A DNA stretch of 64,000 nucleotides from contig NZ_OW485601.1 in NCBI RefSeq assembly GCF_937425535.1, positions 1-64,000 of the forward strand, given 5' to 3'. Below are positions 5,976 to 32,595 of this stretch, piece after piece. This DNA is from Rhodovastum atsumiense (GTDB lineage Bacteria > Pseudomonadota > Alphaproteobacteria > Acetobacterales > Acetobacteraceae). The translations under genes and the position numbers were made by a program. The number at the start of each line of letters is the position of its first letter. Position 1 is the first letter of the stretch. The notes below the pieces were generated by a model. The model made no database searches. It had not been told where the DNA came from and saw only the letters and a list, made by a program, of their open reading frames with translations.

Positions 5976-6077
5976 ATGACCGTTGCGCTGTCGATCGGTT
6001 TCGCGCTGATGTTGGCCTCGATCCTGTTGGCAACCTGGCCGGGGCGGCGCACACGTGATCTCGTACCGGGTGAGTGA
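5976..6077 (+). CDS. Possible 33-residue membrane peptide
   Basis: A short frame between the FemAB-like gene and the DUF2075 gene. The peptide has one strongly hydrophobic segment ('VALSIGFALMLASILLATW') followed by a basic tail (GRRTRD), as expected of a single-pass inner-membrane miniprotein. It overlaps the start of the next gene by 23 bp in another frame, which is compatible with coupling. There is no strong ribosome-binding site beyond a weak GCGAGCAG. The frame could be chance in GC-rich DNA, since such DNA often gives hydrophobic Ala/Leu-rich frames. Confidence 0.3.
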   Translation: MTVALSIGFALMLASILLATWPGRRTRDLVPGE

Positions 6078-8058
6078 CTTCCTGACGGCCGATCCGGCCG
6101 CGCTCGCGCATCGCCTGGCCTGGCAGGACCAGCAGCGCTTCCGGCGCAACGAACCGCAGCAATTGCGCGCCTGGACCGCCTCGATCGCGGCGTTGCGGGC
6201 GGCGCTGGCCGACTGGCCGGACGCGGCGTCATGGCGCATGGTGCTGGAATATCCGATGCGCCGCCTGTCGCGCCGGATCGATGCGGTGCTGGCGACCCCG
6301 CGCGCCATTCTGGTGCTGGAGTTCAAGATCGGCGCGGCGCGCCACGAGGCGGCAGACCGGCGGCAGGTGGACGATTACGCGCTCGACCTGCGCGACTTCC
6401 ATGCCGCGAGCGGCGCGCATCCGGTGGTGCCGATCCTGGTTGCCACTGATGCCCCGGCCCGGCCGGTGACCTGGCCGCTGCTGATCCCGGCGGTGACGGA
6501 GGTGCTGGACGCCAATGCCGCCACGCTGGCCGGGTTGCTGCGCGATCTCTGGCGACGCCTGCCCGTCCCGGCGCGGCCACTGGACGTGACCGCCTGGGAA
6601 GACGCGCCGTATCGCCCGGTGCCCGGCATCATCGACGCCGCCTGCACGCTCTATTCGCATCACGGCGTGCAGGAGATCGCCACCGCCCAGGCCGGGGCGC
6701 GCAACCTGACCGCGACCACGCAAGCCATCCTGGCGGCGGTTCGCGGCGCCGAAGTCGAAAGCCGGCACCTCGTGCTGTTCGTGACCGGCATCCCCGGCGC
6801 GGGCAAGACACTGTGCGGCCTGAATGCCACCTTCGGCGCCGGGCGCGACCAGGGCACCATCTTCCTCACCGGCAATCCCACCCTGGTCCACGTGCTGCGC
6901 GAGGCGCTCGCCCGTGATGCCGCGGCCCCCGGAGGCACCAGCCTGCGCGCCGCCCGCCAGCGCACCAAGGCGGCGATCCAGGCCCTGCCCGGATTCCGCG
7001 ACGACGCGATCCAGCGCGGCCATGTGCCGCCCGAGCACGTCGCCGTCATCGACGAGGCGCAGCGGGCCTGGGCGCGCGCGCATGCGGTGCGAAAAAGCCG
7101 TGACCGCGAGGTGCAGTTGTCGGATTCGGAACCGGGGCACCTGCTGGACATCATGGCCCGGCACCGGGATTGGGCGGTGCTGGTCTGCCTGGTTGGCGGC
7201 GGGCAGGAGATCCATGACGGCGAAGGCGGGCTGGCGGAATGGGGCAACGCCCTGGCGACGCGCCCGTGCTGGCAGGTATTGGCAGCCGAGCCCGTCCTGC
7301 GGCAAGCCGATCCGCGCCAGCGCCTGCCCGCCCTGCCCGGGCTGCGGATCGTCCCGGACCTGCATCTCGATGTGCCGGTGCGCAACCTGCGCAATCCCTT
7401 CGCCGCGCCCTGGGTGGATGCGCTGCTGCGCAACGCCTGCGACGAAGCCGCCGCCATCGCACGCGACCACGGCCCGCTGCCCTTCGTGCTGACCCGCGAC
7501 CTCGATGGAATGCGCGCGCAACTCCGCGCCCGTTGCCGCGGCGAACGGCGGGCCGGGCTGGTCGCCAGTTCCGGGGCGAAGCGGTTGCGGGCGGACGGGC
7601 TGGGCGCGGAGTTGCCGCATATGGACGCCGCCACGGTCGCGCACTGGTTCCTGGACCGCTGGCCCGCCGATGTGCGCGCCTCCGACGCGCTGGAGGTGGT
7701 GGCAAGCGAATTCTCGGTGCAGGGTCTCGAACTGGACCATGTCGGGCTCTGTTGGGGTGGCGACCTGATCCGCGCGCGCGGGAACTGGCTGGTGCGGGAT
7801 TTCGTCGGCACGCGCTGGCAGATCCCGCGCGGAGCGGAGGCCATCGCCAACCGCATCAACACCTATCGCGTGCTGCTGACGCGGGCGCGCTACGGGACGG
7901 TGATCTGGGTGCCGCGCGGCGCGGCCGTGGACCCCACGCGTCACCCCGTGGAATTCGATGCCGTCGCCGATACCCTGCGCGCCTGTGGCGTCACCGCCTT
8001 GAGCGACGCGGACGAGGTGAAGACGGGCGCGACCGCGGAACCGTCACTCCTGCTCTGA
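6055..8058 (+). CDS. DUF2075 helicase-like ATPase with N-terminal PD-(D/E)XK-like nuclease segment
   Basis: A 667-residue protein starting at GTG. Residues 65-91 show an E...D...ExK arrangement (E65, D76, E89-F-K91 in 'RRIDAVL' and 'ILVLEFKIG') that looks like a PD-(D/E)XK nuclease core. The centre is a P-loop ATPase of the DUF2075/superfamily-1 type: Walker A GIPGAGKT at 245-252, Walker B 'VAVIDEAQRAW' with D333-E334, and a late motif VI-like 'NTYRVLLTRARYGTVIWVP'. DUF2075 proteins are poorly known and include predicted helicases found in phage-defence and mobile contexts; an isolated copy is also common. Here no restriction, methylase or abortive-infection partner is adjacent. Its 3' end overlaps the convergent small gene by 15 bp. 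Confidence 0.82.
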   Translation: MISYRVSDFLTADPAALAHRLAWQDQQRFRRNEPQQLRAWTASIAALRAALADWPDAASWRMVLEYPMRRLSRRIDAVLATPRAILVLEFKIGAARHEAADRRQVDDYALDLRDFHAASGAHPVVPILVATDAPARPVTWPLLIPAVTEVLDANAATLAGLLRDLWRRLPVPARPLDVTAWEDAPYRPVPGIIDAACTLYSHHGVQEIATAQAGARNLTATTQAILAAVRGAEVESRHLVLFVTGIPGAGKTLCGLNATFGAGRDQGTIFLTGNPTLVHVLREALARDAAAPGGTSLRAARQRTKAAIQALPGFRDDAIQRGHVPPEHVAVIDEAQRAWARAHAVRKSRDREVQLSDSEPGHLLDIMARHRDWAVLVCLVGGGQEIHDGEGGLAEWGNALATRPCWQVLAAEPVLRQADPRQRLPALPGLRIVPDLHLDVPVRNLRNPFAAPWVDALLRNACDEAAAIARDHGPLPFVLTRDLDGMRAQLRARCRGERRAGLVASSGAKRLRADGLGAELPHMDAATVAHWFLDRWPADVRASDALEVVASEFSVQGLELDHVGLCWGGDLIRARGNWLVRDFVGTRWQIPRGAEAIANRINTYRVLLTRARYGTVIWVPRGAAVDPTRHPVEFDAVADTLRACGVTALSDADEVKTGATAEPSLLL

Positions 8059-15323: not shown

Positions 15324-16481
15324 ATGACCGAACCTTCCCCCGCCTGGTCCCCCCGTACCCTTGCCGCCCAGGCGCTCGGGCATATCGACGAGCCTTCGCG
15401 TGCCGTCGTGCCGCCCATCCACATCGCCACCACCTTCCTGCGCGATCCCGACAACCAGTATCGCAGCGGCAACGTCTACGGCCGCGCCGACAACGTCACC
15501 GTGCGCGAGGCCGAGTCGATCATCGCGGCCCTCGAGGGTGCCGATGCCGCCATGGTGCTGGGCTCGGGCATGTCGGCCGCGACCGCCGTGTTCCTGGCGC
15601 TGGCACCGGGGGACCACGTGGTGGTGCCGAAGGTGATGTACTGGGCGCTGCGCGGCTGGCTGCAGAACGACGCCACGCACTGGGGCCTGCGGGTCGAGGG
15701 CGTGGACACCACCGACCTCGACGCCCTGCGCCAGGCCATGCGGCCCGGCGAGACGAAGCTCGTCTGGCTGGAATCGCCCGCCAACCCGCTCTGGGGCGTG
15801 ACCGACATCGCCGCCGCGGCGGACATCGCGCATGCCGCCGGGGCAAAGCTGGCCGTCGATTCGACCTGTGCCACCCCGGTGCTGACCCGGCCCCTCGCCC
15901 TTGGGGCCGACATCGTCATGCATGCCGCCACGAAATACCTGAACGGCCATTCCGACGTGATCGCCGGGGCGCTGGCGACCCTCCGCCCCGACGCGTTCTG
16001 GGAGCGCATTCGTCGCAACCGGTCGATGTTCGGCCAGATCCTGGGCCCGCTGGAGGCATACCTGCTGATTCGCGGCATGCGCACGCTGCCGCTGCGCGTC
16101 GCCGCCGCCTGCACCAGCGCCATGGACCTCGCCACCCGCTTCGCCGGCCATGACCACGTCGCGCAGGTGCTGTATCCGGGCCTGCCCGGCCATCCCGGCC
16201 ACGACATCGCCTGCCGGCAGATGCAGGGCGGCTTCGGCGGCATGCTCAGCATCCGCGTGCGCGGCGGCGAGCGCGCGGCGATCGACGCGGCGGCACGGGT
16301 GCGGTTGTGGAAGCGCGCGACCTCGCTGGGCGGGGTGGAGAGCCTGATCGAGCATCGCGCCTCGATCGAAGGGACGGGATCTCCCTGCCCGCCCGACCTG
16401 CTGCGTCTGTCGGTGGGCATCGAGGACCCGGCCGACCTGTTCGCCGATCTCGACGCGGCGCTGCGCGGCGCCAACGCATGA
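15324..16481 (+). CDS. Trans-sulfuration PLP enzyme (cystathionine beta-lyase/gamma-synthase family)
   Basis: A 385-residue member of the Cys/Met-metabolism PLP family. Marks are 'VVPPIHIATTFLR', 'YGRADNVTVREAESIIAALEG', 'LGSGMSAATAVFLAL', the aspartate that holds the pyridine nitrogen in 'LAVDSTCATPV', and the PLP lysine K204 in 'MHAATKYLNGHSDVIAG'. The end has 'LGGVESLIEHRAS' and 'LLRLSVGIEDPADLFADL'. Family members include cystathionine beta- and gamma-lyases, cystathionine gamma-synthase and methionine gamma-lyase, and the exact reaction is not decidable by eye. The Tyr-Gly-Arg motif and 'RSGNVYGR' are standard. It overlaps the downstream SGNH gene by 4 bp (ATGA) and is divergent from hutI. 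Confidence 0.88.
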   Translation: MTEPSPAWSPRTLAAQALGHIDEPSRAVVPPIHIATTFLRDPDNQYRSGNVYGRADNVTVREAESIIAALEGADAAMVLGSGMSAATAVFLALAPGDHVVVPKVMYWALRGWLQNDATHWGLRVEGVDTTDLDALRQAMRPGETKLVWLESPANPLWGVTDIAAAADIAHAAGAKLAVDSTCATPVLTRPLALGADIVMHAATKYLNGHSDVIAGALATLRPDAFWERIRRNRSMFGQILGPLEAYLLIRGMRTLPLRVAAACTSAMDLATRFAGHDHVAQVLYPGLPGHPGHDIACRQMQGGFGGMLSIRVRGGERAAIDAAARVRLWKRATSLGGVESLIEHRASIEGTGSPCPPDLLRLSVGIEDPADLFADLDAALRGANA

Positions 16482-17257
16482 TCGGCCGGCGGGCCCTGCT
16501 GGCCGCGGGCGCCGCTGCGCTCGGCGGCGCGGTGCCCGCCGCCGCGGCGCTGCCGCTGGCGGCAACCCCGGTCTCGCGCATGGACCTGCGCTGGTGGCGG
16601 GAGCGGCACGCGGCGAAGCTGGCCGAGATCCGGTCGCGCCCGGTCGAACTGGTGTTCCTCGGCGATTCGATCACGCAGAACTGGGAAACCTCCGGCCCGC
16701 CGCCCTGGCGGGATTTCGCGCCGCTCTGGCGGCACTGGTATGGCGACCGGCAGGCAGTCAACCTGGGTTTCAGCGGCGACGCCACCTGCCACCTGCTCTG
16801 GCGGCTGCGGAACGGCGAAATCGACGGCATCGCGCCGAAGGCGACGGTCATCCTGATCGGCGCCAACAATCTCGGCCGGCTGCACTGGCCGGCCGAGGAC
16901 ACCCTCGCCGGCATCGAGGCGGTGGTGGCGGAGACGCGGCACCGCCTGCCGGACAGCGGGATCCTGCTGCTGGGCATCCTGCCGAGCGAGCGCAGCGCCT
17001 GGGCCAGCGCAACCACGCAGACGGTCAACCGGGCGCTCGCGTCCCGTTTCGGCAAAGGGCAGGTGCCGGGCGTGGTCTGGTTCGATCCCGAACCGGTGTT
17101 CGCCCCGGGGGGACGGTTCGACCGCAGCCTGTTCTATGACCCGCTGCTGTCTCCGCCCCAGCCGCCGCTGCATCCCACCGCCGAGGGCCAGGCGCGCCTC
17201 GCCGCCGCCATCGAGCCGACGCTTGCCCGCCTGCTTGGGCAGGCACCACGGCACTGA
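16478..17257 (+). CDS. Exported SGNH/GDSL-type hydrolase
   Basis: A 259-residue protein with an N-terminal export signal (MIGRR followed by an Ala-rich hydrophobic run and a cleavage-like ALPLAA region; the Arg pair resembles a Tat signal but lacks a full consensus). The catalytic domain shows block I 'LVFLGDSITQNWE' with nucleophile Ser64, block II Gly in 'VNLGFSGDATCHLLWRL', block III 'VILIGANNLGRLHW', and block V 'PLHPTAEGQARLA' with the catalytic His. It resembles the PAF-acetylhydrolase IB subunit-type SGNH esterases that act on acyl groups of lipids or sugars. It is translationally coupled to the PLP-enzyme gene, which gives no clear functional hint. A terminator follows. Confidence 0.85.
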   Translation: MIGRRALLAAGAAALGGAVPAAAALPLAATPVSRMDLRWWRERHAAKLAEIRSRPVELVFLGDSITQNWETSGPPPWRDFAPLWRHWYGDRQAVNLGFSGDATCHLLWRLRNGEIDGIAPKATVILIGANNLGRLHWPAEDTLAGIEAVVAETRHRLPDSGILLLGILPSERSAWASATTQTVNRALASRFGKGQVPGVVWFDPEPVFAPGGRFDRSLFYDPLLSPPQPPLHPTAEGQARLAAAIEPTLARLLGQAPRH

Positions 17258-17282
17258 GCCGGGCACTGGCATGGAAAGAAAT

Positions 17283-17315
17283 CCCGGATTCCATCAGGAT
17301 CCGGGAGATCATTTT
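17283..17315 (+). terminator. Rho-independent terminator after the SGNH gene
   Basis: Perfect 7-bp stem CCCGGAT (17283-17289) / ATCCGGG (17299-17305) with a 9-nt loop, followed by a short T-rich stretch (ATTTTG at 17311). It lies 26 bp after the SGNH stop codon and ends the PLP-enzyme/SGNH transcript. Confidence 0.7.
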
Positions 17316-17371
17316 GTCTCAAATCCGCAAAAGACGGCCGCATTTCAAACAGAATCGTAATACTATTTAAT

Positions 17372-17388
17372 ATATCTCTGGTAGATAT
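17372..17388. promoter_or_regulatory. Perfect dyad ATATCT-N5-AGATAT upstream of NRPS gene
   Basis: Two 6-bp arms with a 5-bp spacer, perfectly symmetrical, 325 bp upstream of the NRPS start within the AT-rich island. The size and spacing fit an operator for a dimeric regulator; none is encoded nearby and I cannot match the site to a known regulator family. Confidence 0.4.
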
Positions 17389-17425
17389 CGCAGAGAAAAC
17401 TTATGTCATAGCGTTATTTATCAAA

Positions 17426-17437
17426 ATAAAATTTTAT
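17426..17437. promoter_or_regulatory. 12-bp palindrome ATAAAATTTTAT upstream of NRPS gene
   Basis: A perfect self-complementary 12-mer made only of A and T in the AT-rich island. It may be an operator or bendable/melting element of the NRPS promoter. Low complexity weakens the argument for a specific site. Confidence 0.3.
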
Positions 17438-17712
17438 CTCGTAGATTTGATTATAATAATTTCCCCAATACCCACCGACGCAAACTTTTGTGATTGTCTG
17501 GTGACAGGAACGGCTGCCTCCGCGATAACAATTCGGATGTGGGCGATCGGCGGCTTTTCCAGACAAGCGTCTGTGAGTGGTCTATCCATTTTCGCGATGT
17601 AATTGTGCGGAAATTGCTACTGCACCGTTTCGCCGCATCGGGAAGGGTCGTGCGGTGGAAAAGAACATCGCGCCACGGGTTCGGCGACGGCAGCGAAGGT
17701 AACGCACTCGAG

Positions 17713-20700
17713 ATGAGCAGCACTGTCATGGACACGACGCTTCCCGGGGAGCGTCGGGGAGCCTCGGCGTCGACCGGGCTCTCCTTTCCCTGTTCGGTTC
17801 AGCAGCAGCAATTCTGGGTGCTCGACCGGCTGGAGCCGGGCAATCCGGCGATGAACGTCGCGGTGCGCTGGCAGCTCGACGGGCGGATCTCGACGGAGGT
17901 GATGGAACAGGCCTTCCGCATCGTCATCGACCGTCATGAAGTGCTGCGCACCGGCTTTGTCGAGGTGGAGGGCAATCCGGTCCAGCGCGTGGCCTCCGCG
18001 CTGCCGCCGTTCCGGCTGGCCGATGTCGACCTGACCGGGTTGCCGGACACCGAGCGGGCCGCGCAGGTGCTGCGCATCAGCCGGCTGGAGGGGATGACGC
18101 CGTTCGACATCGCCGCGCCGCCGCTGATCCGCGCAACGCTGCTGCGGGTGGAGCCCACGCGCGCCATCCTGCTGGTCACCGCCCACCACATCGCCTGCGA
18201 CGGCTGGTCGATCGGCGTGCTGGCGCGGGAGGTCGGCACGATCTATCGCAGCCTGCGCGAGCAACGCCCGCACCCGCTGGCGGACCTGCCGATCCAGTGC
18301 GGCGATTTCGCGCTCTGGCAGCAGGAATGGCTGAGATCCGAAGCCCTGGGGGCGGAAGCCGAGTACTGGGCCGTCAAGCTCGCCGGCATGAAACATTTCG
18401 AGGTCATGCCGGACCGGCCGCGCCCGCCGGTGCAGAGCTCGAACGGCCAGATCGTCTCGGTGCTGCTGCCGAAGGCGCTGACGACAGAGGTGCGGGCCCT
18501 CGGGGCCCGCCACGGCGCCACCTTCTTCGCCACCGCCCTCGCCGCCCTGAAGGCGCTGCTGCACCGGCTCACCGGCGAAACCGACATCGGCATCGGCACC
18601 CAGATCGCCGGCCGCCATGCCCCCGAACTGGAAGGCATGATCGGCGTCTTCATCAACACCCTGGTGCTGCGCGACGACGCCGGCGGCGACCCAGGCTTTT
18701 CCGCTTTCCTCGACCGGGTGCGCTGCACGGTGGAAGAGGCGCTCGCGCATGCGCAGATGCCGATCCAGCATCTGGTGGAAATGCTGAAGCCGCCGCGCGA
18801 TCCCAGCCGCAATGCGCTGTTCTCGGTCAATTTCATCTTCCAGCGCAGCTTCATCAGCAATGCCGATTACGGCGAGTGGCGGCTGACCGACATCCCCTCG
18901 GTCTCGCCCGGCGCGATCTACGACCTCAATTTCTTCATGGTGGAGCGCCCGGAAGGCTGGCGGCTCTCCTGCGAATACAACACCGACCTGTTCGAAGAAG
19001 CGACGGTGCGGGGGATGCTGGAGCGACTGCAGCTCCTGCTCGGCGCCATCGTTGCCACCCCGCATTGCCGGCTTTCCGAGCTGCCAATCCTGCTGCCGGA
19101 CGAACACCAGCGCCTGCTGGAGACCTGGAACGACACCGCCGCCCCCTTCCCCGCGGACATGACGGTCGCGGACCTGTGGGCGCAACAGGTCGCGCGCACC
19201 CCCGCGGCCCCGGCGCTGCTGTGGGACGGCGGCAGCCTCGGTTGCGGCGCACTGGACGCCGAGGCGACGCGGATCGCCGCGCACCTGGTGGCGGCGGGCA
19301 TCGGGCCCGGGGCGGTGGTGGGCGTGGCGCTGCGGCGCTCGCCGGCGCTGGTGGCGGCACTGCTCGGCGTCCTCAAGGCCGGGGCGGCGTACCTGCCGCT
19401 CGATCCCGATCATCCGGCCAGCCGGCTGCTGTACATGGTCCGGACCGCCGGGGTCAGGCTGGTGGTGACCAGCGAGGCGATCGAGGCCAGCCTGCCGGCC
19501 GGGCTGCCCTGCCTGGTGCCGGAACGGGCCACAGGCAGCCTGCCGACTGCCGCCCCCGCCGCGGCGCGGCCGGAGGACATCGCCTATGTCATCTTCACCT
19601 CGGGCTCGACCGGCCAGCCGAAAGGTGTCGCCAACACGCATCGCGGCCTGATCAACCGCCTGGCCTGGCTGTGGCGAACCGAGCCGTATGGCCCGCGCGA
19701 ACTGTCAATCCACAAGACCTCGCCGAATTTCGTCGATGCCGTCACCGAACTGCTCGGCCCGCTGCTGCGCGGCGTGCCGGTGCTGGTGGCCTCGCCCGAG
19801 GACGGCGCCGATCCCGCACGGCTGGGCGCGCTGATCCGGACGCACCGGGTCACCCGGCTGACACTGGTGCCGAGCCTGCTGGAAGCCCTGCTCGACCTGC
19901 GGGCCGATCTCTCCAGCCTGCGCCTGGTGATCTGCAGCGGCGAGGTGTTGCCGCGACGCCTGGCCGATCGCCTGCACGCCGCCTTTCCCGAGCTGCGGCT
20001 GATGAATTTCTACGGCGCCTCGGAAGCCAATGGCGACAGCCTCGCCTCTGTGGTCGCGCCGGGCAGCGGAGCGGTGCCGATCGGCCGGCCGATCGCCAAC
20101 ACCACCGCCTATGTCCTGGACGGGGCGCTGCACCCGATGCCGGAAGGCGCGCCAGGATTCCTGTACATCGGTGGTGCCGGGCTGGCGGCGGGCTATTTGA
20201 ACCGGCCCGACCTGACCGCCGAACGCTTCATCGCCAACCCGTTCGGCGAAGGGCGGCTGTACCGGACCGGCGACATCGTCCGCTGGCGACATGACGGACA
20301 GCTCGACTATCTCGGCCGCGCCGACCACCAGGTGAAGCTGCGCGGCTTCCGCATCGAGCTCGGCGAGGTCGAGGCGGCGCTGCTGCAGCATCCGGGCATC
20401 GCCGAGGCGGTGGTGATGGCCGACGAAACCGCCGCCACGCTCGCCGCCTTCGTGGTGAAGCGGCCGAGCGCACCGGTCGATGCCGCCACCCTGCTGGCGG
20501 AGCTGCGGGCACAGGCCGGGCAGATCCTGCCCGCCTACATGCGGCCCGCCACCATCACCCTGCTGCAATCCCTGCCGCGCACCAGCACCGGCAAGATCGA
20601 CCGGACCCGGCTGGTTGCGCCGCGCCCGGCCCCCACCGCGCCCGGCCGCGACCCGGCCCTCGCCACCGCGACCGAACGGCGCATCGCCGGGATCTGGCAG

Positions 20701-21681
20701 GAAGTGCTCGGGGTCATGCCGGCCGCGGCGACGGACAATTTCTTCGACCTCGGGGGACATTCGCTGCTGGCCGCGCGCATGCTGGCGAAGCTGGAGGCGC
20801 AGTTCGGCCAACGCATCCCGGTCGCTGCCCTGTTCCAGGCGCCGACAGTGGCCGAGCTTGCTACCCTGGTCGGCCAGGAGCCGGCCGACATCGCATGCCA
20901 CCAACTGGTCCGGGTGCAGCCGCATGGCAGCCGGATCCCGGTGATCGCCATCAACAATACCGGGGTGTTCGCGCCCCTGGCGCGACGGCTCGGCAACGAC
21001 CAGCCCTTCCTGGCGGTGCAACTGTTCGACCCGGCCCTGCCGCAGGCATGGCCACCGCGCAGCTTCGAGGACATCGCGGCCGCGCAGTTGCGCATCATCC
21101 GCCGGGCGCAGCCGCATGGCCCCTACGTGCTGGTCGGGCTGTGCGTGGCCGGCTGCCTGGCCTGGGAGATCGCGCAGCAACTCACCGCCCAGGGCGAGAC
21201 GGTGAAGCTGCTGGTGATGTTCGACAGCTGGGCGCCGGGCTATACTCGGCGGCTGACACGACGCGGCCGGGTCCTGGCCGAACTCAGCTATCGCTGGCAG
21301 AATTTCCGCAACGAAATGCTGGAACGGCCGGGCACGGCGGCACGGCTGGGCTATGTCACCCGCCGCGTCGCCGAGAAGCTGCGCCTGCGCCGGCCGCCGC
21401 CGCCGCCCGCCGACACGCCCTGGTACCAGGCGCATCTCGTCGCCGCGGCGCAGGACTACACGGCGACGCCCTATGCCGGACGGGTGCTGCTGCTGCATCG
21501 CCGCGACCAGCCACACGGCCGCTTCCTCGACCCGCTGCTCGGCTGGAGCGGACTGCTGCAGGGGCCGCACGAGGTGCACGAGGTGCCCGGCACGCATGTG
21601 GGCATGTTCCAGGACCCGCATGCGGGCGTGCTCGCGGCGCATATCCGGCGCGCCCTGGCCGCCGCCGAGGCCGAGGACTGA
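17713..21681 (+). CDS. Single-module non-ribosomal peptide synthetase, C-A-T-TE
   Basis: 1322 residues. Condensation domain at about 20-450 with the active HHIACDG motif (158-164). Adenylation domain at about 475-970: core motif '[11 protein letters not shown]' (628-638), 'YRTGDIVRW', '[18 protein letters not shown]', and A10 Lys961. Thiolation domain with phosphopantetheine Ser1017 in '[10 protein letters not shown]'. Thioesterase at about 1050-1320 with catalytic Cys1144 in GLCVAG (Ser in most), Asp1171 and His1295. Aligning to PheA core motifs I read the specificity residues as V674, D675, T678, T717, I740, S742, F766, G774, D775, K961. Absence of Asp at the first position and Asp at the second and ninth recalls the beta-alanine code (as I remember it, VDWVISLADK). 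The ATG at 17713 lies just before the C domain. The hydrolase gene follows 5 bp later. Confidence 0.93.
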
Positions 21682-21686
21682 TCCGC

Positions 21687-23051
21687 ATGCGCCCCCTGGA
21701 GATCCTGGCCGTGCTCGCGGTGCTGGCCGGGCTGCTGCGACCGGGATGGCTGGCGGCCCTGGCGGTACTGGCGGCGGCGGCGCAGCTCGTGGTCGAAGGG
21801 GCGCGCTGGCAGATGGTGCCGGTCTATCTGGCGGCGTCCCTGGCCGTGCTCGCCGGCGTGGCGGAGCTGTCCGATCGCAAGGGGCTGCGCCTGGCCGCCC
21901 TCTGCGGCGCGATGGTGCTGGCGGTCGCCGGCGTGGGCGCCGCCATCGCCTTCCCGATCTTCCGCCTGCCGCCGCCGACCGGATCCGCCCCGGTTGGCAC
22001 ACGGCTGCTGCAGGTGCCGGCCGGGCCGGACGGGCGGGTGTTGTCGCTGCAGATCTGGTACCCGGCCCGGCCGGACGCGGCCCTCGCCACCGCTCGCTAT
22101 CGCGACACCGCCCCGGGGCTACTGCTGTCGCATCTTCCCCTGGTGCCCACCCATGCCCGCCTGGAAGCACCGATCACGCCGGGCCCGCATCCGGTCGTCC
22201 TGTACGCGCATGGCTGGGGCGGCTTCCCGCAGGACAACACAGCGCTGGTGGAAGACCTCGCGAGCCACGGCTTCGTCGTGGTCGCGGTGGGCACGCCCGG
22301 CGGCTTGGGCACCGGGCACGCGGCGGACGGCAGGCCGGTCGACCTGGACGGGCCACTCGACCTCTCCAGCGACGCGGCGACCGCCACTACGCAACTGATC
22401 GGGGCGCTGAACACCGCCGCCCGGGCACGCGACCTGGTGCGGGTGCTGGACACACTGGCCGCGCTGAATGCCGGCGATCCCGCCGGCCCCTTTACCGGAG
22501 CCTTGCAGGCCGCACGGGCCGGGGTGCTCGGCTTTTCCTTCGGCGGCTCGGTCGCGGCCGAGACCGCCCGCATCGACCGGCGCGTGGTCGCGGTCATGAA
22601 CATGGATGGCTGGCTGTTCGGCCCGGTCCAGCGCACCGGCGTCGCGGTGCCATACCTGGTCATGAGCGACGACGCCCCCCTGCCCGCGCCCGGCGACGAG
22701 ACGGCCGCCGATGCCGGCCGGCGCAACTGGGCCATCCTGATGAACCGCGACTGGACCTGCATGCGCGCCGGCTTCGCCCGCCATGGCGGCGAGCTGATGT
22801 TCCTGACCGGATCGCTGCACACCAATTTTTCGGACCGGCCGTACTACTCGCCGATTCGCCGCTGGAGCGGCGCGGGCCGGATCGACCCGGCCCGTGCCAC
22901 CGCGATCCAGCGGCGCATCGCCGTCACCTTCTTCGGCCGGTGGCTGCGCGGTGATCCGGCCCCGCCACCGGACCAGGACGGATCGCCCTTCCCGGAAATC
23001 CGGCGGCAGACCTGGCCGCTTCCCGCGCCGGCCGAGGCCGCTGCCGGGTAA
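21687..23051 (+). CDS. Membrane-anchored alpha/beta hydrolase, PAF-acetylhydrolase-like
   Basis: 454 residues. The first 95 or so form about four hydrophobic helices (starting 'LEILAVLAVLAGLLRPGW'). The rest is an alpha/beta hydrolase resembling plasma-type platelet-activating-factor acetylhydrolase: 'LQIWYPARP', the oxyanion strand 'VVLYAHGWGGFPQDNTALVE', nucleophile Ser284 in 'VLGFSFGGSVAAE', the acid in 'VMNMDGWLF', and the His in 'GSLHTNFSD'. PAF-AH enzymes cleave short acyl groups from phospholipids; related bacterial proteins act on esters or amides. It starts 5 bp after the NRPS stop, so the two are almost certainly co-translated; it could release, trim or detoxify the NRPS product at the membrane. 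That role is inferred. Confidence 0.83.
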   Translation: MRPLEILAVLAVLAGLLRPGWLAALAVLAAAAQLVVEGARWQMVPVYLAASLAVLAGVAELSDRKGLRLAALCGAMVLAVAGVGAAIAFPIFRLPPPTGSAPVGTRLLQVPAGPDGRVLSLQIWYPARPDAALATARYRDTAPGLLLSHLPLVPTHARLEAPITPGPHPVVLYAHGWGGFPQDNTALVEDLASHGFVVVAVGTPGGLGTGHAADGRPVDLDGPLDLSSDAATATTQLIGALNTAARARDLVRVLDTLAALNAGDPAGPFTGALQAARAGVLGFSFGGSVAAETARIDRRVVAVMNMDGWLFGPVQRTGVAVPYLVMSDDAPLPAPGDETAADAGRRNWAILMNRDWTCMRAGFARHGGELMFLTGSLHTNFSDRPYYSPIRRWSGAGRIDPARATAIQRRIAVTFFGRWLRGDPAPPPDQDGSPFPEIRRQTWPLPAPAEAAAG

Positions 23052-23152
23052 GGCCCGGCCGGGGCACCGGGATCGCGCACGCGATTGTGTCTCCGCCCGA
23101 CCCGGCACCGGGCGGTTTGTTCGGCCATGGGAGAAAACGGCAACGCGGGCGG

Positions 23153-23899
23153 ATGCTGAGCATCGAGGATTTCCGGCTGGAGGGGCGCGTGGCCCTGGTG
23201 AGCGGTGCCGGACATGGCATCGGGCGCGCGGTGGCCGAGGCATTCGGGGCGGCGGGGGCCCGGGTGGGCGTGGTCGAACCGGCCGATGCCGCGGCGGCCG
23301 AAGCCGTCGCCGGCGGCATCCGCGCAAGCGGCGGCGAGGCGCTGGCGCTGCCGGCCGATCCCGCCGACGCCGCCGCCGCGGCCGGGCTGATCGACAGCGT
23401 CGTGCGGCAGCTCGGCGGGCTCGACGTCCTGGTCACCAGCAGCGGCGCAGCCGCGCCGCTCGCCTTGCGCGACATCACCGCGGAGGAGTGGGAGGACGGG
23501 CTGCGCCGGCATCTCTCCGCAGCCTTCTTCCTGGCACGGCACGCACTTGCTTACATGTCCGTCCGCAAATGGGGCCGCGTGATCCTGATGCCGGGCGCGC
23601 CGGCCGGACCGATGCTCGCCGCACAGGCCGGGCTGCAGGGCCTCGCCCGGGCGATCGCAAGCGAATTCGGCGCCGACGGCATCACCGCGAACATCGTCGC
23701 CGCCGGCGCGATCGACACGGCGGGGGGCGAATGGTGGCGCGAGCACCGGATCCGCAACCGCATCACCGCGCAGGTGCCGCTCGGCCGGCTTGGCAGCGCC
23801 GACGAGGTCGCGGCGGCCTGCCTGTTCCTGAGCAGCCCTGCCGGCGGCTTCGTCTCCGGCCAGGTCCTGCATGTCGACGGCGGGCAGGGCACTGGTTGA
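23153..23899 (+). CDS. SDR-fold protein lacking the catalytic Tyr-x-x-x-Lys
   Basis: 248 residues with a classical short-chain dehydrogenase Rossmann fold: cofactor motif 'VSGAGHGIGRAVAEAFG' (GAGHGIG at 18-24), a degenerate NNAG segment ('VTSSGAAAP'), and the C-terminal 'VPLGRLGSADEVAAACLFLSS' and 'GQVLHVDGGQG'. Between residues 142 and 162 the usual Ser...Tyr-x-x-x-Lys active site is missing: 'GRVILMPGAPAGP' runs straight into 'MLAAQAGLQGLARAIASEFG', about ten residues short. The reading frame is intact on both sides, so this is not a frameshift. A normal oxidoreductase role is doubtful; it may be a binding or scaffold protein. It lies 101 bp after the hydrolase gene. Confidence 0.8.
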   Translation: MLSIEDFRLEGRVALVSGAGHGIGRAVAEAFGAAGARVGVVEPADAAAAEAVAGGIRASGGEALALPADPADAAAAAGLIDSVVRQLGGLDVLVTSSGAAAPLALRDITAEEWEDGLRRHLSAAFFLARHALAYMSVRKWGRVILMPGAPAGPMLAAQAGLQGLARAIASEFGADGITANIVAAGAIDTAGGEWWREHRIRNRITAQVPLGRLGSADEVAAACLFLSSPAGGFVSGQVLHVDGGQGTG

Positions 23900-24055
23900 A
23901 TGTTGAGCAGGCCCGCCCCGGTGCCGTGCCATACTGGCCGGGAGCCGCGGCCGCACGGGCAGACCCTGCCGGTGCGGGGTCTTGTTCGCTCGTCCGGCTC
24001 CGGTTCGTCACGACGGCCGCAGGATGACAACGGGTTTCCCCGTGGGAGGAGCGAG

Positions 24056-24415
24056 ATGAGCTTCGTCGATGACATGCTGAACGCCCTGTCAGGCACCCAG
24101 GGAGGGACTCATCCCTGGCTGATCCAGGCCGTGCGCGGCATCGCCGGCGACGACCAGGGCGCCGGCCCCGGCATCGCCTGGGTCCTGCAGAGACTGGAAG
24201 CGGCCGGCTACGGCGCCGCGGTGCGCGCCTGGACGCATGGGCTGAAGACCCCGGACGTGGCACCGCACGACCTGCATGCCGCCCTGGGCGACGCGCAGGT
24301 GCAGGCGATGGCGCATCGCGCCAACCTCACGCCCGACGAGCTGGTCGGCAAACTCAGCCAGCATCTTCCGGGCATCGTCGCCCATCTCTCGACGGACGGC
24401 AGGTTCCCGGGCTGA
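24056..24415 (+). CDS. YidB/DUF937 family protein
   Basis: 119 residues beginning 'MSFVDDMLNALSG', with 'GIAWVLQRLEAAGYGAAVRAWTHG' and 'LTPDELVGKLSQHLPGIVAHLS', the YidB-like DUF937 pattern: a helical domain with a 'GLG..V.SWVG.G.N' type core and a terminal 'LP.....LTP.G.LP' motif, here 'LSTDGRFPG'. These small cytoplasmic proteins have no established function. A strong ribosome-binding site (GGGAGGAG) lies just upstream of the ATG at 24056. It is preceded by 156 bp without a gene and converges with the histidine kinase gene, 5 bp apart. Confidence 0.82.
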   Translation: MSFVDDMLNALSGTQGGTHPWLIQAVRGIAGDDQGAGPGIAWVLQRLEAAGYGAAVRAWTHGLKTPDVAPHDLHAALGDAQVQAMAHRANLTPDELVGKLSQHLPGIVAHLSTDGRFPG

Positions 24416-24420
24416 GCTGA

Positions 24421-26712
24421 TCAGCGTCCCGCCGGGACGGTCGCCAGCAACCGGGCCACCGCTTCCAGCAACTGCACGGCGCGGTACGGCTTGTCGAGGA
24501 CGGGCAGCCCCGCCATGTCGCCAGTGGCCTTGTCCAGATCGGCATAGCCGGTGACCACAAGCACCGGCAGCCCCGGCCGCAGCGCGCGCGCATGGCGGAC
24601 GAGCACGCTACCGGTCATCTTCGGCATCGCCAGGTCGGTCACCAGCAGATCGACCGCCGTGCCCGCCTGCAGCAGCGCCAGCGCGACCGCGCCGTTCCCC
24701 GCCTGCAGGACACGGTAGCCGGCCTCATCCAGCGTGCAGGCGGCGAATTCCACGACATCCTCGTCATCATCCACCAGCAGGATCGTGGCCCCGCCCACCG
24801 CTGCCGGCGGTGCCTCGGCGCTCCCGGCGGAGAGATCGACCGGGAGGGCCTCGGCGCGCGGCAGCCAGAGGCTGACCGTGGTTCCCTCGCCGGGCTGGCT
24901 CTCGATCTGCACGCCGCCCCCCGACTGCATGGCGACCCCGTGCACCATCGACAATCCCAACCCGGAGCCGCGGCCCACCGGCTTGGTGGTGAAGAACGGC
25001 TCGCAGGCCCGCGCCAGCGTCGCCACATCCATCCCGACCCCGGTATCGACCACCGAAATGCGAACGTATTCACCCGCGGCCAGCTCCGCCGGATGGGTCG
25101 CCCCGGGAAGAACCGTCTCGTTGCCGGCCGAGATGATCAGCGTGCCCCCCTCGGGCATGGCGTCACGCGCATTGATGGCGAGGTTCAGCAGCACCAGCTC
25201 CAGTTGGGCGGGATCGGAGCGGACATGCCACAGGCCGGGCGGCAGCAGGCCGGCGACCCGCACGGCCGGGCCAATGGTGCGGGCAAGCAGGTTTTCCATG
25301 CCGCCGACCAGGGCCTGCAGATCCACCGCCTGCGGATGCAGCACCTGGCGGCGGGCGAAGGCCAGCATGCGCCGGATCAACGCCGCGCCGCGATCGGCCG
25401 CGCGCGATGCGCCGAGGAGCAGGCGCTGCAATTCGGCCTGGCCGGCGCTGCGGCGCATCGCCAGTTGCAGGTTGCCGATCACCGCCGTGAGCAGGTTGTT
25501 GAAGTCATGGGCGATGCCGCCGGTCAGGTAGCCCAGCACCTCCATTTTCTGCGACTGCAGCAGATCGGCCTGGGCCCTCTGGCGCTCCCGCATTTCGGCC
25601 TCGAGCTGCTGCGTGCGTTCGGCGACGCGCCGCTCGAGCTCGGCATTGGCCCGCGCCAGCGCCGCCTCGCTGTGCCCGGCGGCATCCACCAACTCGTTGA
25701 CGGCCCGCGCGATGCGCGCGATCTCGCCGCCGCCGCCCGGCACACGCACATGGATGCCGCGGGTCCCTTCGCGCCACTGCTCCACCGCCCGCAGGATGTC
25801 CCCGACCGGCTCACCGATGATCCGCCGCGCCACCAGGAAGGCCAGGATGCAGGCCAGGCCGAACCCCAGGGCCATCAGCAGGTAGGTGCGCCGCGAGGCC
25901 GCCGCGCCTTCGGCATAGGCGGCATCGGTGTCATAGCCGACGCTGACGAACAGATCCGGCATCGGCGCCACCGGCGGGACGTAGCCGATGATACGGCGCA
26001 CGCCGTCGCCGCCGCGCCATTCGGTCACGCCCGGCGCGGTGGCGGTCATCATCCAGCCGAATCCGGCCGTGACCAGATCGTCTTCCTTGCCGCCTTCCGG
26101 CAACGGCAGCAGGATATGCCCCGCCCGATCGGCCAGCATCACGCTGTACGGCGCCGGCAACTCCCGGCCCTCGATCTGCGTGCGCAGGCGCCGCAGGTCC
26201 AGGCCGGCCATCAGCATGGCGTCCGGCACCCCGGCGAGGCCGTGCACCGGATACACCACGCCGAGCAGGGAGCGGCCGGTAAAAGGGTCAAGGACATGGC
26301 CGCCGACGCTGAAACCACCCCGCCCGGCGGCCGACGGGACAGGCACGAACGTGCCGGAGGCTGCCTCCGGGGATGCCTGGGGACTGCCGCAGAGCACCCG
26401 CCCCGCGGCATCGACCAGCGCGAGCGTACCGTCCGGCAGCGCCCGCTCGCGCACGTCGGCGAGCGCCGCCATGCAGGCGGCCGGGTCGCCGGCGCGAATC
26501 GCCGGATGCGCGGCGAGCGCGACCAGCATGCCGCGGATGCCACTGAGCAACAGTTCCAGTTCGCCGGCGACGCTGCGCGCCTCGTGCTGCGCCTCGGCGC
26601 GCATGTCCCGCTCGGTGGCGGCGCGCAGGGCGTTCTCGTTGTAGAGCTGGATGCCCAGGGCGGGCAGCAGCGCCACCACGATGACCAGGACCACGCGCAG
26701 CAGCAGGCTCAT
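24421..26712 (-). CDS. Hybrid sensor histidine kinase with C-terminal receiver domain
   Basis: 763 residues. N-terminal membrane helix ('LLLRVVLVIVVALLPALGI'), an extracytoplasmic dCache-like sensor (about 35-275), a second membrane helix ('YLLMALGFGLACILAFLVA'), a HAMP-like linker and coiled coil (300-390), the HisKA H-box with His402 in 'GGIAHDFNNLLTAVIGNL', and the ATPase domain with N, G1 and G2 boxes ('LNLAINARDAM', 'VVDTGVGMD', 'GSGLGLSMVHG'). The C-terminal receiver has 'ILLVDDDEDVV', the phospho-acceptor Asp693 in 'LLVTDLAMPKMTG' and Lys in 'LDKPYR'. No output regulator is nearby, so it probably signals through an unlinked partner. An in-frame start at 26760 is less likely. Confidence 0.92.
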   Translation of the reverse strand: MSLLLRVVLVIVVALLPALGIQLYNENALRAATERDMRAEAQHEARSVAGELELLLSGIRGMLVALAAHPAIRAGDPAACMAALADVRERALPDGTLALVDAAGRVLCGSPQASPEAASGTFVPVPSAAGRGGFSVGGHVLDPFTGRSLLGVVYPVHGLAGVPDAMLMAGLDLRRLRTQIEGRELPAPYSVMLADRAGHILLPLPEGGKEDDLVTAGFGWMMTATAPGVTEWRGGDGVRRIIGYVPPVAPMPDLFVSVGYDTDAAYAEGAAASRRTYLLMALGFGLACILAFLVARRIIGEPVGDILRAVEQWREGTRGIHVRVPGGGGEIARIARAVNELVDAAGHSEAALARANAELERRVAERTQQLEAEMRERQRAQADLLQSQKMEVLGYLTGGIAHDFNNLLTAVIGNLQLAMRRSAGQAELQRLLLGASRAADRGAALIRRMLAFARRQVLHPQAVDLQALVGGMENLLARTIGPAVRVAGLLPPGLWHVRSDPAQLELVLLNLAINARDAMPEGGTLIISAGNETVLPGATHPAELAAGEYVRISVVDTGVGMDVATLARACEPFFTTKPVGRGSGLGLSMVHGVAMQSGGGVQIESQPGEGTTVSLWLPRAEALPVDLSAGSAEAPPAAVGGATILLVDDDEDVVEFAACTLDEAGYRVLQAGNGAVALALLQAGTAVDLLVTDLAMPKMTGSVLVRHARALRPGLPVLVVTGYADLDKATGDMAGLPVLDKPYRAVQLLEAVARLLATVPAGR

Positions 26713-29485: not shown

Positions 29486-30614
29486 GGGACCTCCTGGCAC
29501 GGGGCGGGCAACGCCAGTGCTGTGACCGCGACGGACAATCCCATCGCGCCGCGGCCCTGGCCCTTGATTTGGTGTTCCGATTCGCGCGACGGGGCAGAGG
29601 CATTTGTCGCAACCGGAACACTACCCCGGCCGGACCCGATGCTTCAACGAATGGAGACGATGCCGCAGCGGACGGCGGGGATCGTCGCCCCGGCCGTTCC
29701 GCCCGGTTGCCAGACGGCGCCGCAGCACCATCTGGCAAAACGGAGGCGTGCGATCGCGTAACGTCCCTGGCCTGATCGGGGGCAGGCGCAGGAACCGTCG
29801 TGCCTCCCGTTCGTACCGGCTGCGGCCCTGGCGCGATCGGAATGGCGCGACGACGATCAGGCCCGGCGAGCATTGCCGTTCACATCGTCGCGGATATCGG
29901 CCGATGGTGAATCGTTGACGCACGGGGGGTGCTACACAGCGTTGTTCATGCCATGGATCCCGAAGCCCGGTGCCCTGGCGAGGGATGTCGCCGCACTCCC
30001 CGACAGCAAGAATGGCCTGAATGAACCGGCCATGTCGGGCGCGCGCGGTCATGGTGCAATGTGCGTCGGTTGCGTTGGCAGACGCAGGGACGGGATCAGG
30101 TGGTCGTCAGCAGTAGCGGCCCTTGGACAGGCTCCTTTCCCATCAAACATTGTCGAGGGAAAGGCACGAATTTCTCACTTTTACGGCGATGGATTGTGAT
30201 GGATTTTTCGCCCCTGGCGTGCAAGCATGCAGTCAAGCCCGTGTTACAAACACGGGGACACACGGCATTTCAATCAAAGCACGGCCGACAACCTGAGCCA
30301 CACCTGGGCAGAGTCGTCGGATCATCGGTCCGTCTGCGGGCAGAAGATGAAATGCCCACCAGCCGGATCGTGGATGTGAGAGAGTGGCCCGCCCGCCACG
30401 AGCAGCAAGGGTCATCGCGTCTGGGGTCGATTGTTCTCGACGCCCGTAAACTGGTTTTTTTATCTTCGTGGCAGAGAATTTAGGAGAGGGGACTCCCACC
30501 CCGCTCCTTAACATTCGGGTGACGAGGTCCGTGGCTAGGCGCGTCACCCGTTACACACCCTGAAAAGGGGCGCCGTGGCCGAAAGCTGCGCTCCGATGCG
30601 TGAGGAGTATCTCT
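29486..30614. other. 1.1-kb region without a convincing gene, upstream of prkA
   Basis: Frames here (for example 29873-30199 plus, 29621-30052 minus) lack recognisable domains, have biased Arg/Cys/His content typical of shadow frames and no good ribosome-binding sites. The right part must hold the prkA promoter. It contains a stem-loop at 30517-30549 and an A/T-rich patch near 30,455 (GGTTTTTTTATC). No tRNA, sRNA or mobile-element remnant could be identified by eye. The length is unusual for this compact genome. Confidence 0.5.
30517..30549 (+). promoter_or_regulatory. Stem-loop/dyad in the prkA leader
   Basis: Perfect 8-bp arms GGGTGACG (30517-30524) and CGTCACCC (30542-30549) separated by 17 nt, 66 bp before the prkA ATG. 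It could be an operator for a dimeric regulator or an mRNA stem in the 5' leader. Confidence 0.4.
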
Positions 30615-32558
30615 ATGAGCGTCGACCTTCTTCGCTCGCGCTTCTCGAGCCATTTCGAGGCCCGGCGCGATGCGGAAATACCCCTGGAAGCGTTCCTCGA
30701 ACGCTGCCGTACCGACCCGAAGACCTATAGCAGCGCTGCCGAGCGACTGCTGACGGCGATCGGCGAGGCCGAAATCATCGACACCTCCCAGGACCCGCGG
30801 CTCGGCCGGATCTTCGCCAACCGGACGATCCGCCGCTACCCCGCCTTCAGCGAGTTCCACGGCATGGAGGAGACGATCGAGCGCATCGTCGGCTTTCTCC
30901 GCCATGCCGCGCAGGGGCTCGAGGAACGCAAGCAGATCCTGTACCTGCTCGGCCCGGTCGGCGGTGGGAAGTCCTCGCTCGCCGAGCGGCTGAAGGAGCT
31001 GATGGAGCGCGAGCCGATCTACGTGCTCAAGGCCGGCGAGGAAGTCAGCCCCGTGTTCGAGAGCCCGCTCTCGCTGTTCAGCGACCCGCACATGGTCGAC
31101 ACGCTGGAGACCGAGTACGGCATCCCGCGGCGCGCGGTGCGCGGGCCGATGAGCCCGTGGGCGCTGAAGCGGTTGCAGGAATTCGGCGGCGACGCCTTCC
31201 GCTTCAGCGTGATGAAGATGATGCCGAGCCGGCTGCGCCAGGTCGGGGTGGCCAAGACCGAGCCGGGCGACGAGAACAACCAGGACATCTCCACCCTGGT
31301 CGGCAAGGTCGATATCCGCAAGCTGGAAGCCTTCGCCCAGAACGACCCCGACGCCTACAGCTTCTCGGGCGGGCTCAATCGCGCCAACCAGGGCATCCTC
31401 GAGTTCGTCGAGATGTTCAAGGCGCCGATCAAGATGCTGCATCCGCTGCTGACCGCCACCCAGGAAGGCAACTATGTCGGCACGGAGAACATCGGCGCCC
31501 TGCCCTTCCAGGGCCTGATCCTCGCCCACTCCAACGAGGCCGAGTGGCAGACCTTCAAGAACAATCGCAACAACGAAGCCTTCATCGACCGCATTTATGT
31601 CGTAAAGGTGCCGTACTGCCTGCGCGTGACCGAGGAACAGGCGATCTACCGCAAGATGCTGGCCGCCTCCGAGCTCGCCAACGCGGCCTGCGCCCCGGGC
31701 ACGATCGAGATGCTCGCCCGCTTCGCCGTGCTGTCGCGGGTGAAGGAGCACCCGAATTCCAACCTGTTCAGCAAGATGCGCGTCTATGATGGCGAGGCCA
31801 TCAAGGAACAGGACCCGCAGGCGCGCAGCGTGCAGGAATACCGCGACGCCGCCGGCGTGGACGAGGGCATGTCCGGCATCTCCACCCGCTTCGCCTTCAA
31901 GGTGCTCTCGCAAACCTTCAATTTCGACAGCACCGAGGTTGCGGCCGATCCGGTCCACCTCATGTACGTGCTCGAGCGGCTGCTGCGCCAAGAGCAGTTC
32001 CCCGAGGATGTCGAGAAGAAACTGTTGAACTTCATCAAGGCGATGCTGGCGCCGCGTTATGCCGAGTTCATCGGCAACGAGATCCAGAAGGCGTACCTGG
32101 AATCCTACAGCGACTACGGCCAGAACCTGTTCGAACGCTACATCTCCCTGGCCGATGCCTGGATCGAGGACGCCGATTTCAAGGATCCCGATACCGGCAC
32201 GCTGATGAGCCGGGACGAGCTGAACGCCGAGCTCACCAAGATCGAGAAGCCCGCGGGCATCGCCAATCCCAAGGACTTCCGCAACGAGGTGGTGAAGTTC
32301 GCCCTGCGCGCCAAGGCGCGCGACGGCGGGCGGATGCCACGCTGGACCGCCTATGAGAAGATCCGCGAAGTGATTGAACGGCGCATGTTCAGCCAGGTGG
32401 AAGACCTGCTGCCGATCATCTCCTTTGGGGCGAAGAAGGACGTCGAGACCGAGCGCAAGCACGGTGACTTCATCGCGCGCATGCGTGACCGCGGCTACAC
32501 CGAACGGCAGGTACGCCGCTCCGTGGAGTGGTTCATGCGCGTGCAGAAGTCCGGGTGA
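30615..32558 (+). CDS. prkA: PrkA serine protein kinase/AAA+ ATPase
   Basis: 647 residues, the normal length for PrkA (YeaG in E. coli). The AAA domain has the P-loop GPVGGGKS at 113-120 in 'ILYLLGPVGGGKSSLAERL', followed by family-specific 'YVLKAGEEVSPVFESPL', 'NQDISTLVGKVDIRKLE', 'DAYSFSGGLNRANQGILEFVEMFKAP' and a C-terminal PrkA kinase-like domain ('KARDGGRMPRWTAYEKIREVIERRMF'). PrkA/YeaG is a stress- and nitrogen-starvation-responsive kinase; its targets are largely unknown. GAGGA lies 8 bp before the ATG at 30615. It heads the conserved prkA-DUF444-spoVR operon (yeaG-yeaH-ycgB in enterobacteria). Confidence 0.96.
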   Translation: MSVDLLRSRFSSHFEARRDAEIPLEAFLERCRTDPKTYSSAAERLLTAIGEAEIIDTSQDPRLGRIFANRTIRRYPAFSEFHGMEETIERIVGFLRHAAQGLEERKQILYLLGPVGGGKSSLAERLKELMEREPIYVLKAGEEVSPVFESPLSLFSDPHMVDTLETEYGIPRRAVRGPMSPWALKRLQEFGGDAFRFSVMKMMPSRLRQVGVAKTEPGDENNQDISTLVGKVDIRKLEAFAQNDPDAYSFSGGLNRANQGILEFVEMFKAPIKMLHPLLTATQEGNYVGTENIGALPFQGLILAHSNEAEWQTFKNNRNNEAFIDRIYVVKVPYCLRVTEEQAIYRKMLAASELANAACAPGTIEMLARFAVLSRVKEHPNSNLFSKMRVYDGEAIKEQDPQARSVQEYRDAAGVDEGMSGISTRFAFKVLSQTFNFDSTEVAADPVHLMYVLERLLRQEQFPEDVEKKLLNFIKAMLAPRYAEFIGNEIQKAYLESYSDYGQNLFERYISLADAWIEDADFKDPDTGTLMSRDELNAELTKIEKPAGIANPKDFRNEVVKFALRAKARDGGRMPRWTAYEKIREVIERRMFSQVEDLLPIISFGAKKDVETERKHGDFIARMRDRGYTERQVRRSVEWFMRVQKSG

Positions 32559-32595
32559 GACGCCCGGCCGCAAGACCATCAACACAGGCCATGCC

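Follow-up and report, generated by a model that had tools for sequence, protein, structure and literature searches.

A C-A-T-TE synthetase gene with a cysteine thioesterase

The window considered here, a stretch of 64,000 nucleotides from the genome of Rhodovastum atsumiense, contains on its forward strand a nonribosomal peptide synthetase (NRPS) gene at 17713-21681, and our analysis concerns the partners, substrate and origin of its product. The stop-free frame translates into a protein of 1322 residues with condensation, adenylation, thiolation and thioesterase domains (C-A-T-TE); the same frame is also open upstream as far as a TTG at 17494. Pfam identified all domains above cut-off: Condensation at residues 26-469 (17788-19119), AMP-binding at 490-829 and AMP-binding_C at 885-961 (the A domain, residues ~490-961, thus spans 19180-20595), PP-binding at 990-1053 (20680-20871) and Thioesterase at 1085-1313 (20965-21651). 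Among the best 25 of 101 NCBIfam matches, TIGR01733 (amino-acid adenylation domain) was the sole model above cut-off and the remaining ones were general NRPS models. The stand-alone C-A-T-TE architecture proposed in a first-pass annotation of this DNA is thereby confirmed. The catalytic motifs (17 protein letters, not shown) are kept together with the A10 lysine (Lys961), including an intact HHIACDG in the C domain and, at residue 1008, the carrier motif (10 protein letters, not shown). The protein thus has the makings of an NRPS terminal module, all four domains and their catalytic motifs being encoded by a single open frame, with one substitution: Cys1144 (21142-21144; GLCVAG) occupies the nucleophile position of the TE in place of Ser, a feature absent from the first-pass annotation. 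The GC content at third codon positions of the gene, 0.887, compares with 0.883-0.905 in four neighboring genes.

A synthetase without a thioesterase elsewhere in the genome

The first-pass annotation had stated that only one module with a C domain is present and that the donor must therefore come in trans. The first statement holds for the window but not for the genome, in which a whole-genome search revealed exactly two C domains, that of the window and one at C1:2972110. Since there are only these two, the need for a donor in trans is supported. The second C domain belongs to a hybrid polyketide synthase (PKS)-NRPS protein (C1:2970229-2978136) that lacks a TE and comprises ketosynthase (KS), acyltransferase (AT), acyl carrier protein (ACP), class III aminotransferase, C, A and T domains. 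Both loci reside on the same contig of 6.48 Mb, at a distance of 2.95 Mb from each other, and do not form one contiguous cluster. Upstream of the PKS-NRPS gene lies a gene for a stand-alone A-T protein (C1:2978133-2980097), and downstream there are glycosyltransferase and WbaP-type genes; none of the genes picked at C1:2955000-2990000 (loci L041/L042) matched a TE. Active-site residues are present in the KS, AT and ACP of the PKS-NRPS, and its AT carries HAFH, which we take to indicate malonyl specificity. The specificity code of the A-T loader, DALWLGGTFK, is Val-like, and that of the PKS-NRPS A domain is DILQLGMIWK. A published source (PMC12283262) assigns DALWIGGTFK, one position off the loader's code, to Val and DILQLGMIWK to Gly. 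The PKS-NRPS protein ends in a tail motif, PxLxx(F/W)xR, common to all eight upstream proteins compared, itself included (Phe in seven, Trp in genome G271), which is no more than suggestive of chain transfer to the terminal module. The genome also encodes a phosphopantetheinyl transferase, read by eye as Sfp-type. A further gene upstream of the A-T loader, L052:14398-15927 (- strand), encodes 509 residues without a Pfam match and has a 40% identical homolog on the PKS contig of G285, a genome of the same genus.

Two other large carrier-protein genes were considered as donors and rejected: judged by their translations, both encode acetoacetyl-CoA-synthetase-like A-T-TE proteins in which the T domain is already followed by a TE, and these TEs were included in the TE tree. 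A homologous pair of this kind in the same genome (L056:2768-5896, - strand, and L057:1578-4613, + strand, at ~6.00 Mb and 1.33 Mb of C1) can be read from their translations as an acetoacetyl-CoA-synthetase-like adenylating domain followed by a carrier domain and a thioesterase, without a condensation domain. They may be single-step acyl-transfer enzymes; the GC content at third codon positions is lower in L057 (0.66).

Relatives carry this module directly after the PKS-NRPS gene

A probe spanning the ACP-aminotransferase-C region matched nine of 397 genomes of the family at E <= 1e-90, namely the genome of the window itself, G285, G086, G168, G006, G271, G028, G115 and G053. Over the order, seven of 395 drawn genomes matched at E <= 1e-120, of which six belong to the above nine and one, G463 (46%), is new and more distant. 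In all six relatives in which a single contig carries both parts (G086, G271, G006, G028, G115 and G168), a terminal gene lies directly downstream of the PKS-NRPS gene. Each of these genes encodes a T domain and a C domain 41-51% identical to that of the window, and five of the six have a TE match, the TE of G006 being degenerate. We built trees from the window and 31 of the fetched loci, 32 sources in all, and admitted domains with a query coverage of at least 75%, which gave 47 domains in the C tree and 55 in the A tree. Duplicate loci were excluded from the first FastTree, as was a further stretch (L055) of the window's genome. The terminal C domains of the six relatives, the window and G285 formed one clade of eight (support 100), and the internal C domains formed another clade of eight (support 100). 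None of the C domains of eight further contig-derived loci fell into the window's clade. In the C and TE trees, but not in the A tree, the window groups with its orthologs, and the TE nucleophile is Cys in seven of eight. In G285, a C-A-T-TE gene on contig C331 directly precedes GT2, WbaP and GT4 genes that are 65-71% identical to those found directly after the TE-less protein in the genome of the window. The adjacency in relatives and this gene order together suggest that the window carries what the distant locus is missing.

The terminal proteins differ among themselves in the A domain, which has a Gly code in G285 and G271, is degenerate in G086 and is absent from G006, G028, G115 and G168. 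The G086 module (L053:2238-6197, - strand) has a dead A domain, with the P-loop TSGSTG lost, A10 Lys replaced by His and an internal deletion, and intact C, T and TE motifs. The A-less terminal proteins have the order C-T-TE (L063:7416-9422, L064:13241-15778, L065:5256-7790 and L066:13585-16134), so that their last carrier either depends on a different A domain for loading or stays empty. Three of the four have the C motif HHxxxDC, and the degenerate TE is that of L063 (G006). A related line is seen in G036 (L050:7919-16432), where a pair of genes, C-A(VDWVTSLADK)-T plus an A-less C-T-TE protein with a Cys TE, lies by an ABC-2 transporter pair; by position, G275 (L051) has the same gene order, Pfam having been run on L050 only.

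An exchanged adenylation domain with a beta-alanine-like pocket

In the C region (residues 1-450, compared in 50-residue windows), the window protein is 42-68% identical to the terminal module of G285 and 29-58% to that of G271, compared with 11-48% to the other aligned modules (one row, G285u, was left out as invalid). A different picture emerges in the first part of the substrate pocket (residues 651-750), where identity reaches 40-52% to domains with the code VDWVTSLADK, 30-42% to Ser-code domains and only 28-32% to the two orthologs; residues 751-800 and the rest of the A domain show no such difference between groups. The approximately unbiased (AU) test rejected the window A domain as sister of the terminal Gly A domains of G285 and G271 (p=0.00138). 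The A domain of the window module was thus replaced relative to its orthologs, most clearly in the substrate-binding core.

What the new domain activates may be judged from its pocket, V674 D675 T678 T717 I740 S742 F766 G774 D775 K961, that is, VDTTISFGDK. A phmmer alignment with LgrA (PDB 6mfy) runs gap-free through the pocket stretch, with 11 window residues (not shown) opposite 'yifdisvaeif'. F and E are matched on both flanks, and Val674-Asp675 (codons 19732-19737) fall at positions 235 and 236 (PheA numbering), Val being at the equivalent of LgrA's Asp235. All pocket residues named by the first-pass annotation, including Val674, D675 and D775, are as it stated, and the first of its refuting conditions, Asp at 235 once gaps are corrected for, is ruled out by this alignment. 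The domain has the V235-D236 pair along with S301, D331 and K517, the combination by which we recognized beta-alanine-type A domains. In the A tree it clusters (support 99) with domains from two further genomes that have the code VDWVTSLADK, and after the addition of eight plasmid A domains it still groups (support 99) with five other VD/ID domains, including IDTTISFGDK (Caballeronia), IDTTLSFGDK (Rhizobium) and VDSVISLADK (Bradyrhizobium); Ser-code domains are its next neighbors. The pocket type is not unique: codes one or two of ten positions off are encoded on plasmids, one of Rhizobium (in a 7.2-kb NRPS gene) and one of Caballeronia (in an A domain). A plasmid search matched 101 records, of which the best 40 were listed and eight typed for code (two ID, one VD and five Ser-like DVWH), and in the whole-protein comparison all 293 plasmid records had less than 60% identity (the best 20 of 293 being listed). 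Code, LgrA register and grouping with VD/ID domains all support the beta-alanine-like pocket proposed at first pass, and beta-alanine is most likely the substrate.

Activation of another small beta-amino acid (e.g. beta-aminoisobutyrate) or a related non-alpha substrate seems unlikely to us, though it has something to recommend it. Phe at 322 and Thr at both 239 and 278 are shared with IDTTISFGDK and IDTTLSFGDK, domains of unassigned substrate, and not with VDWVTSLADK or VDSVISLADK. Moreover, a module taking beta-alanine or beta-aminoisobutyrate is described in PMC12305651, and its A domain is called isoleucine-specific by the usual predictors. On the other hand, V/I235, D236, S301, D331 and K517 are common to all compared codes, and the host can produce beta-alanine, as the genome encodes PanD. 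A literature search on the codes found none of the VD/ID ones tried, one match being an unrelated food paper; DILQLGMIWK (Gly, PMC12283262) was the only code to turn up.

The partner hydrolase and the genomic site

The NRPS gene is followed by a gene at 21687-23051 (+) for a serine hydrolase of 454 residues resembling platelet-activating factor (PAF) acetylhydrolase, with the motif GFSFGG. PF03403 was found in this protein and in its counterparts in G086 and G271. Homologs are present in the clusters of five of the six relatives: in G086, G006, G028 and G168 the hydrolase gene immediately follows the terminal gene, and in G271 it lies ~4.7 kb beyond. All six aligned hydrolases share the Ser, Asp and His presumed to be catalytic, and the enzyme is probably membrane-anchored. 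Relatives also have flippase-like genes (PF13440 in G271 and G086, and 27-29% identical homologs in G028, G115 and G168), which suggest export of the product there; no flippase was found among the annotated genes beside either locus of the window's genome.

On its other side, the NRPS gene is preceded by a Cys/Met-PLP and GDSL gene pair, kept in all four genus mates for which the region was fetched (82.8-83.8% and 67-73% identity); GDSL had no match in two further genus mates. None of the four has an NRPS gene after the pair in the available stretch (in G285, contig C287 ends ~2.1 kb beyond), and thus the window site is not the shared one. A weak terminator-like hairpin after the GDSL gene (17282-17306, +) would set the transcription of the NRPS gene apart from that of the upstream genes, and the AT-richer stretch between GDSL and NRPS genes has a weak sigma-70-like promoter match (17403-17432, +). 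The window contains no transfer RNA gene, and none of the best 20 of 27 direct repeat families at 16400-24600 is a convincing mark of insertion. Relocation of the NRPS and hydrolase genes appears to be the simplest account, though a loss followed by independent acquisition may also be considered. Elsewhere, the window encodes a protein with a Schlafen group 3 type DNA/RNA helicase domain (6055-8058; PF09848), whose neighbors include FemAB-like and YjgF-family proteins, and PrkA serine kinase followed by DUF444 (PF04285) at 30600-33891.

A probable split assembly line and its alternatives

We consider it quite probable that the window gene represents the detached and re-programmed terminal extension-and-release module of a three-protein hybrid line that has become split in this genome. 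The stand-alone A-T protein would load valine, and the KS-AT-ACP-aminotransferase-C-A-T protein would extend it with malonate, convert the beta-keto into a beta-amino group and add glycine. The chain would then pass in trans from this TE-less protein to the window protein, probably through the conserved C-terminal PxLxx(F/W)xR tail. The window protein would add a small beta-amino acid, beta-alanine being the likeliest, after which its Cys-nucleophile TE would release the chain, to be processed by the neighboring, probably membrane-anchored hydrolase. The donor of the window C domain is thus probably a polyketide-Gly peptidyl thioester rather than a simple acyl group. That the two loci work together, as well as the substrate, the product chemistry and the hydrolase step, is what we infer from the sequences. 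A literature search on split clusters found nothing useful. A report on the nemamides, an animal system, provides a shown precedent for scattered pathway genes with chain transfer in trans (PMC8363725).

A number of observations count against such a split line or some part of it. Such a line presupposes interaction and co-expression of the two distant proteins, for which support is indirect at most. The trees are quick ones, with support only from the Shimodaira-Hasegawa-like approximate likelihood-ratio test (SH-aLRT), and the group for the AU test was named after the first FastTree had been seen. The pairing of the window C domain with that of G285 alone is weak (0.135 in FastTree; an open fork in the C tree). 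G053 (48%), despite its aminotransferase module, is differently built and lacks a C domain of the terminal clade. In G285, the PKS contig (C8) and C331 have no identical overlap and differ in their A-domain starts, and the module upstream of the C-A-T-TE gene on C331 is 55.6% like the one in the window's genome, compared with 75% for C8. Either G285 has an extra (Gly) module or C331 is foreign to the bin (listed contamination 8); the split-line argument does not rest on G285 alone. As to the substrate, the overall identity of the window A domain to Ser-code domains (48%, L036) is about equal to that to VD/ID domains (45-50%). The A trees held no characterized beta-alanine-activating sequence, and substrates of the VD/ID neighbors are predicted at most. 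Even the assignment of VDATVSIADK to beta-alanine (pAMDE1-108-A1) in PMC3777966 is a prediction by similarity. No hydrolase was seen in the examined stretch of G115, and hydrophobic N-terminal stretches exceed the threshold in only three of the six hydrolases (three stretches in the window protein, one each in G271 and G028). Finally, no remnant of a terminal module beyond chance (best E 0.74) was recognized in the gap of 458 bases at the distant locus, so that relocation rather than separate acquisition can be argued for only indirectly.

Could the module instead be autonomous, with its C domain taking an acyl group from a free carrier or CoA and joining it to beta-alanine and its TE releasing N-acyl-beta-alanine? 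The terminator-like and promoter-like matches are compatible with a transcription unit of its own, the genome has four free-standing carrier-protein frames (90-139 residues), and the window contains no other C or carrier domain. Yet the clade of the window C domain follows the peptidyl T domain of the PKS-NRPS in six resolved genomes, whereas the Ser-code C-A-T-TE proteins fall elsewhere. The same genome has a line lacking a TE, relatives of that line carry this very module, and the hydrolase travels with it. We therefore regard autonomy as improbable, and the first-pass idea of a single-module synthetase joining an acyl donor to a beta-amino acid is not borne out, given the position of the C domain in the terminal clade of the PKS-NRPS line. 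A broken line, in which the terminal module and the hydrolase would be relics or unrelated acquisitions that do not cooperate with the distant PKS-NRPS, would fit the 2.95 Mb separation and the decay of terminal A domains and of the G006 TE described above, but is more improbable still, because the window domains retain catalytic motifs in a stop-free frame, the distant protein retains its tail motif and the checked active sites, and GC content (0.708 and 0.697) is similar to the surroundings.

If the line is indeed split, a bolder history may be sketched, which we offer tentatively and with some doubt. The terminal module would have had its A domain swapped, killed or deleted repeatedly, with C, T and TE mostly kept. 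In the genome of the window it would have moved 2.95 Mb along with the hydrolase and would dock by the tail. The product would be 3,4-diamino-5-methylhexanoyl-Gly-beta-Ala, with relatives making a Gly-Gly or a shorter version; a flippase would export it and the membrane-anchored hydrolase would trim it.

Implications

If true, our interpretation means that a Gly-type A domain has been successfully exchanged in nature for a beta-alanine-type one within a single bacterial family, and that a terminal module has become physically separated from its assembly line with its motifs kept. Both exchange of A domains and separation of modules are aims of synthetase engineering. Cluster-based genome mining may mistake the window gene for an orphan and the distant line for an incomplete one. 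Relatives with absent or dead A domains raise the question of how the last carrier protein is loaded without an A domain of its own.

Comparison with known systems

In domain order and size, the window protein resembles EntF and other single-module C-A-T-TE synthetases. However, EntF-like proteins of this family have the Ser code DVWHFSLVDK, unlike VDTTISFGDK of the window; for these Ser-code proteins we infer both the EntF-like name and an aryl donor. An EntF-like single-module reading of the window gene was rejected, as its C domain belongs to another clade of the C tree and it has no Ser code. The A domain shares its presumed substrate class, beta-amino acids, with the stand-alone enzymes VinN, IdnL1 and HitB. 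According to PMC11253843, VinN-type enzymes retain Asp235, and the beta13-beta14 loop of VinN is shortened. Because these enzymes keep Asp235, the Val235-Asp236 pair of the window defines a V/I-D type rather than a VinN type, and a VinN-type pocket was rejected for Val at 235; the domain is also embedded in C-A-T-TE and not a stand-alone enzyme. Closer is pAMDE1-108-A1, whose code is identical to that of the window at V235, D236, T278, S301, D331 and K517 and differs at 239, 299, 322 and 330 (window/pAMDE1: T/A, I/V, F/I, G/A).

Cys in place of the catalytic Ser is a feature that the window TE shares with the TEs of ObiF, SulM and AB3403. The AB3403 TE, according to PMC11298585, has its catalytic Asp in the usual place, unlike ObiF and SulM, and the same is apparently true of the window TE ('MFDSWAPGY', judged by sequence). 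For a beta-lactone or beta-lactam of the ObiF/SulM type, a beta-alanine end would offer neither a hydroxyl nor a sulfamate.

The nearest counterpart of the distant protein is MycA of the mycosubtilin/iturin type, in which a PKS/NRPS junction is likewise built as KS-AT-ACP-aminotransferase-C-A-T. According to PMC3870968, MycA has been shown to form a beta-amino group by transamination; the class III aminotransferase is expected to aminate a beta-ketothioester. In contrast to MycA, the line described here would start from an amino acid (Val-like A-T), add only two amino acids thereafter, release its product by a Cys-TE and be encoded at two loci. The starter of MycA is a fatty acyl group; with an amino acid in its place, a 3,4-diamino acid is predicted.

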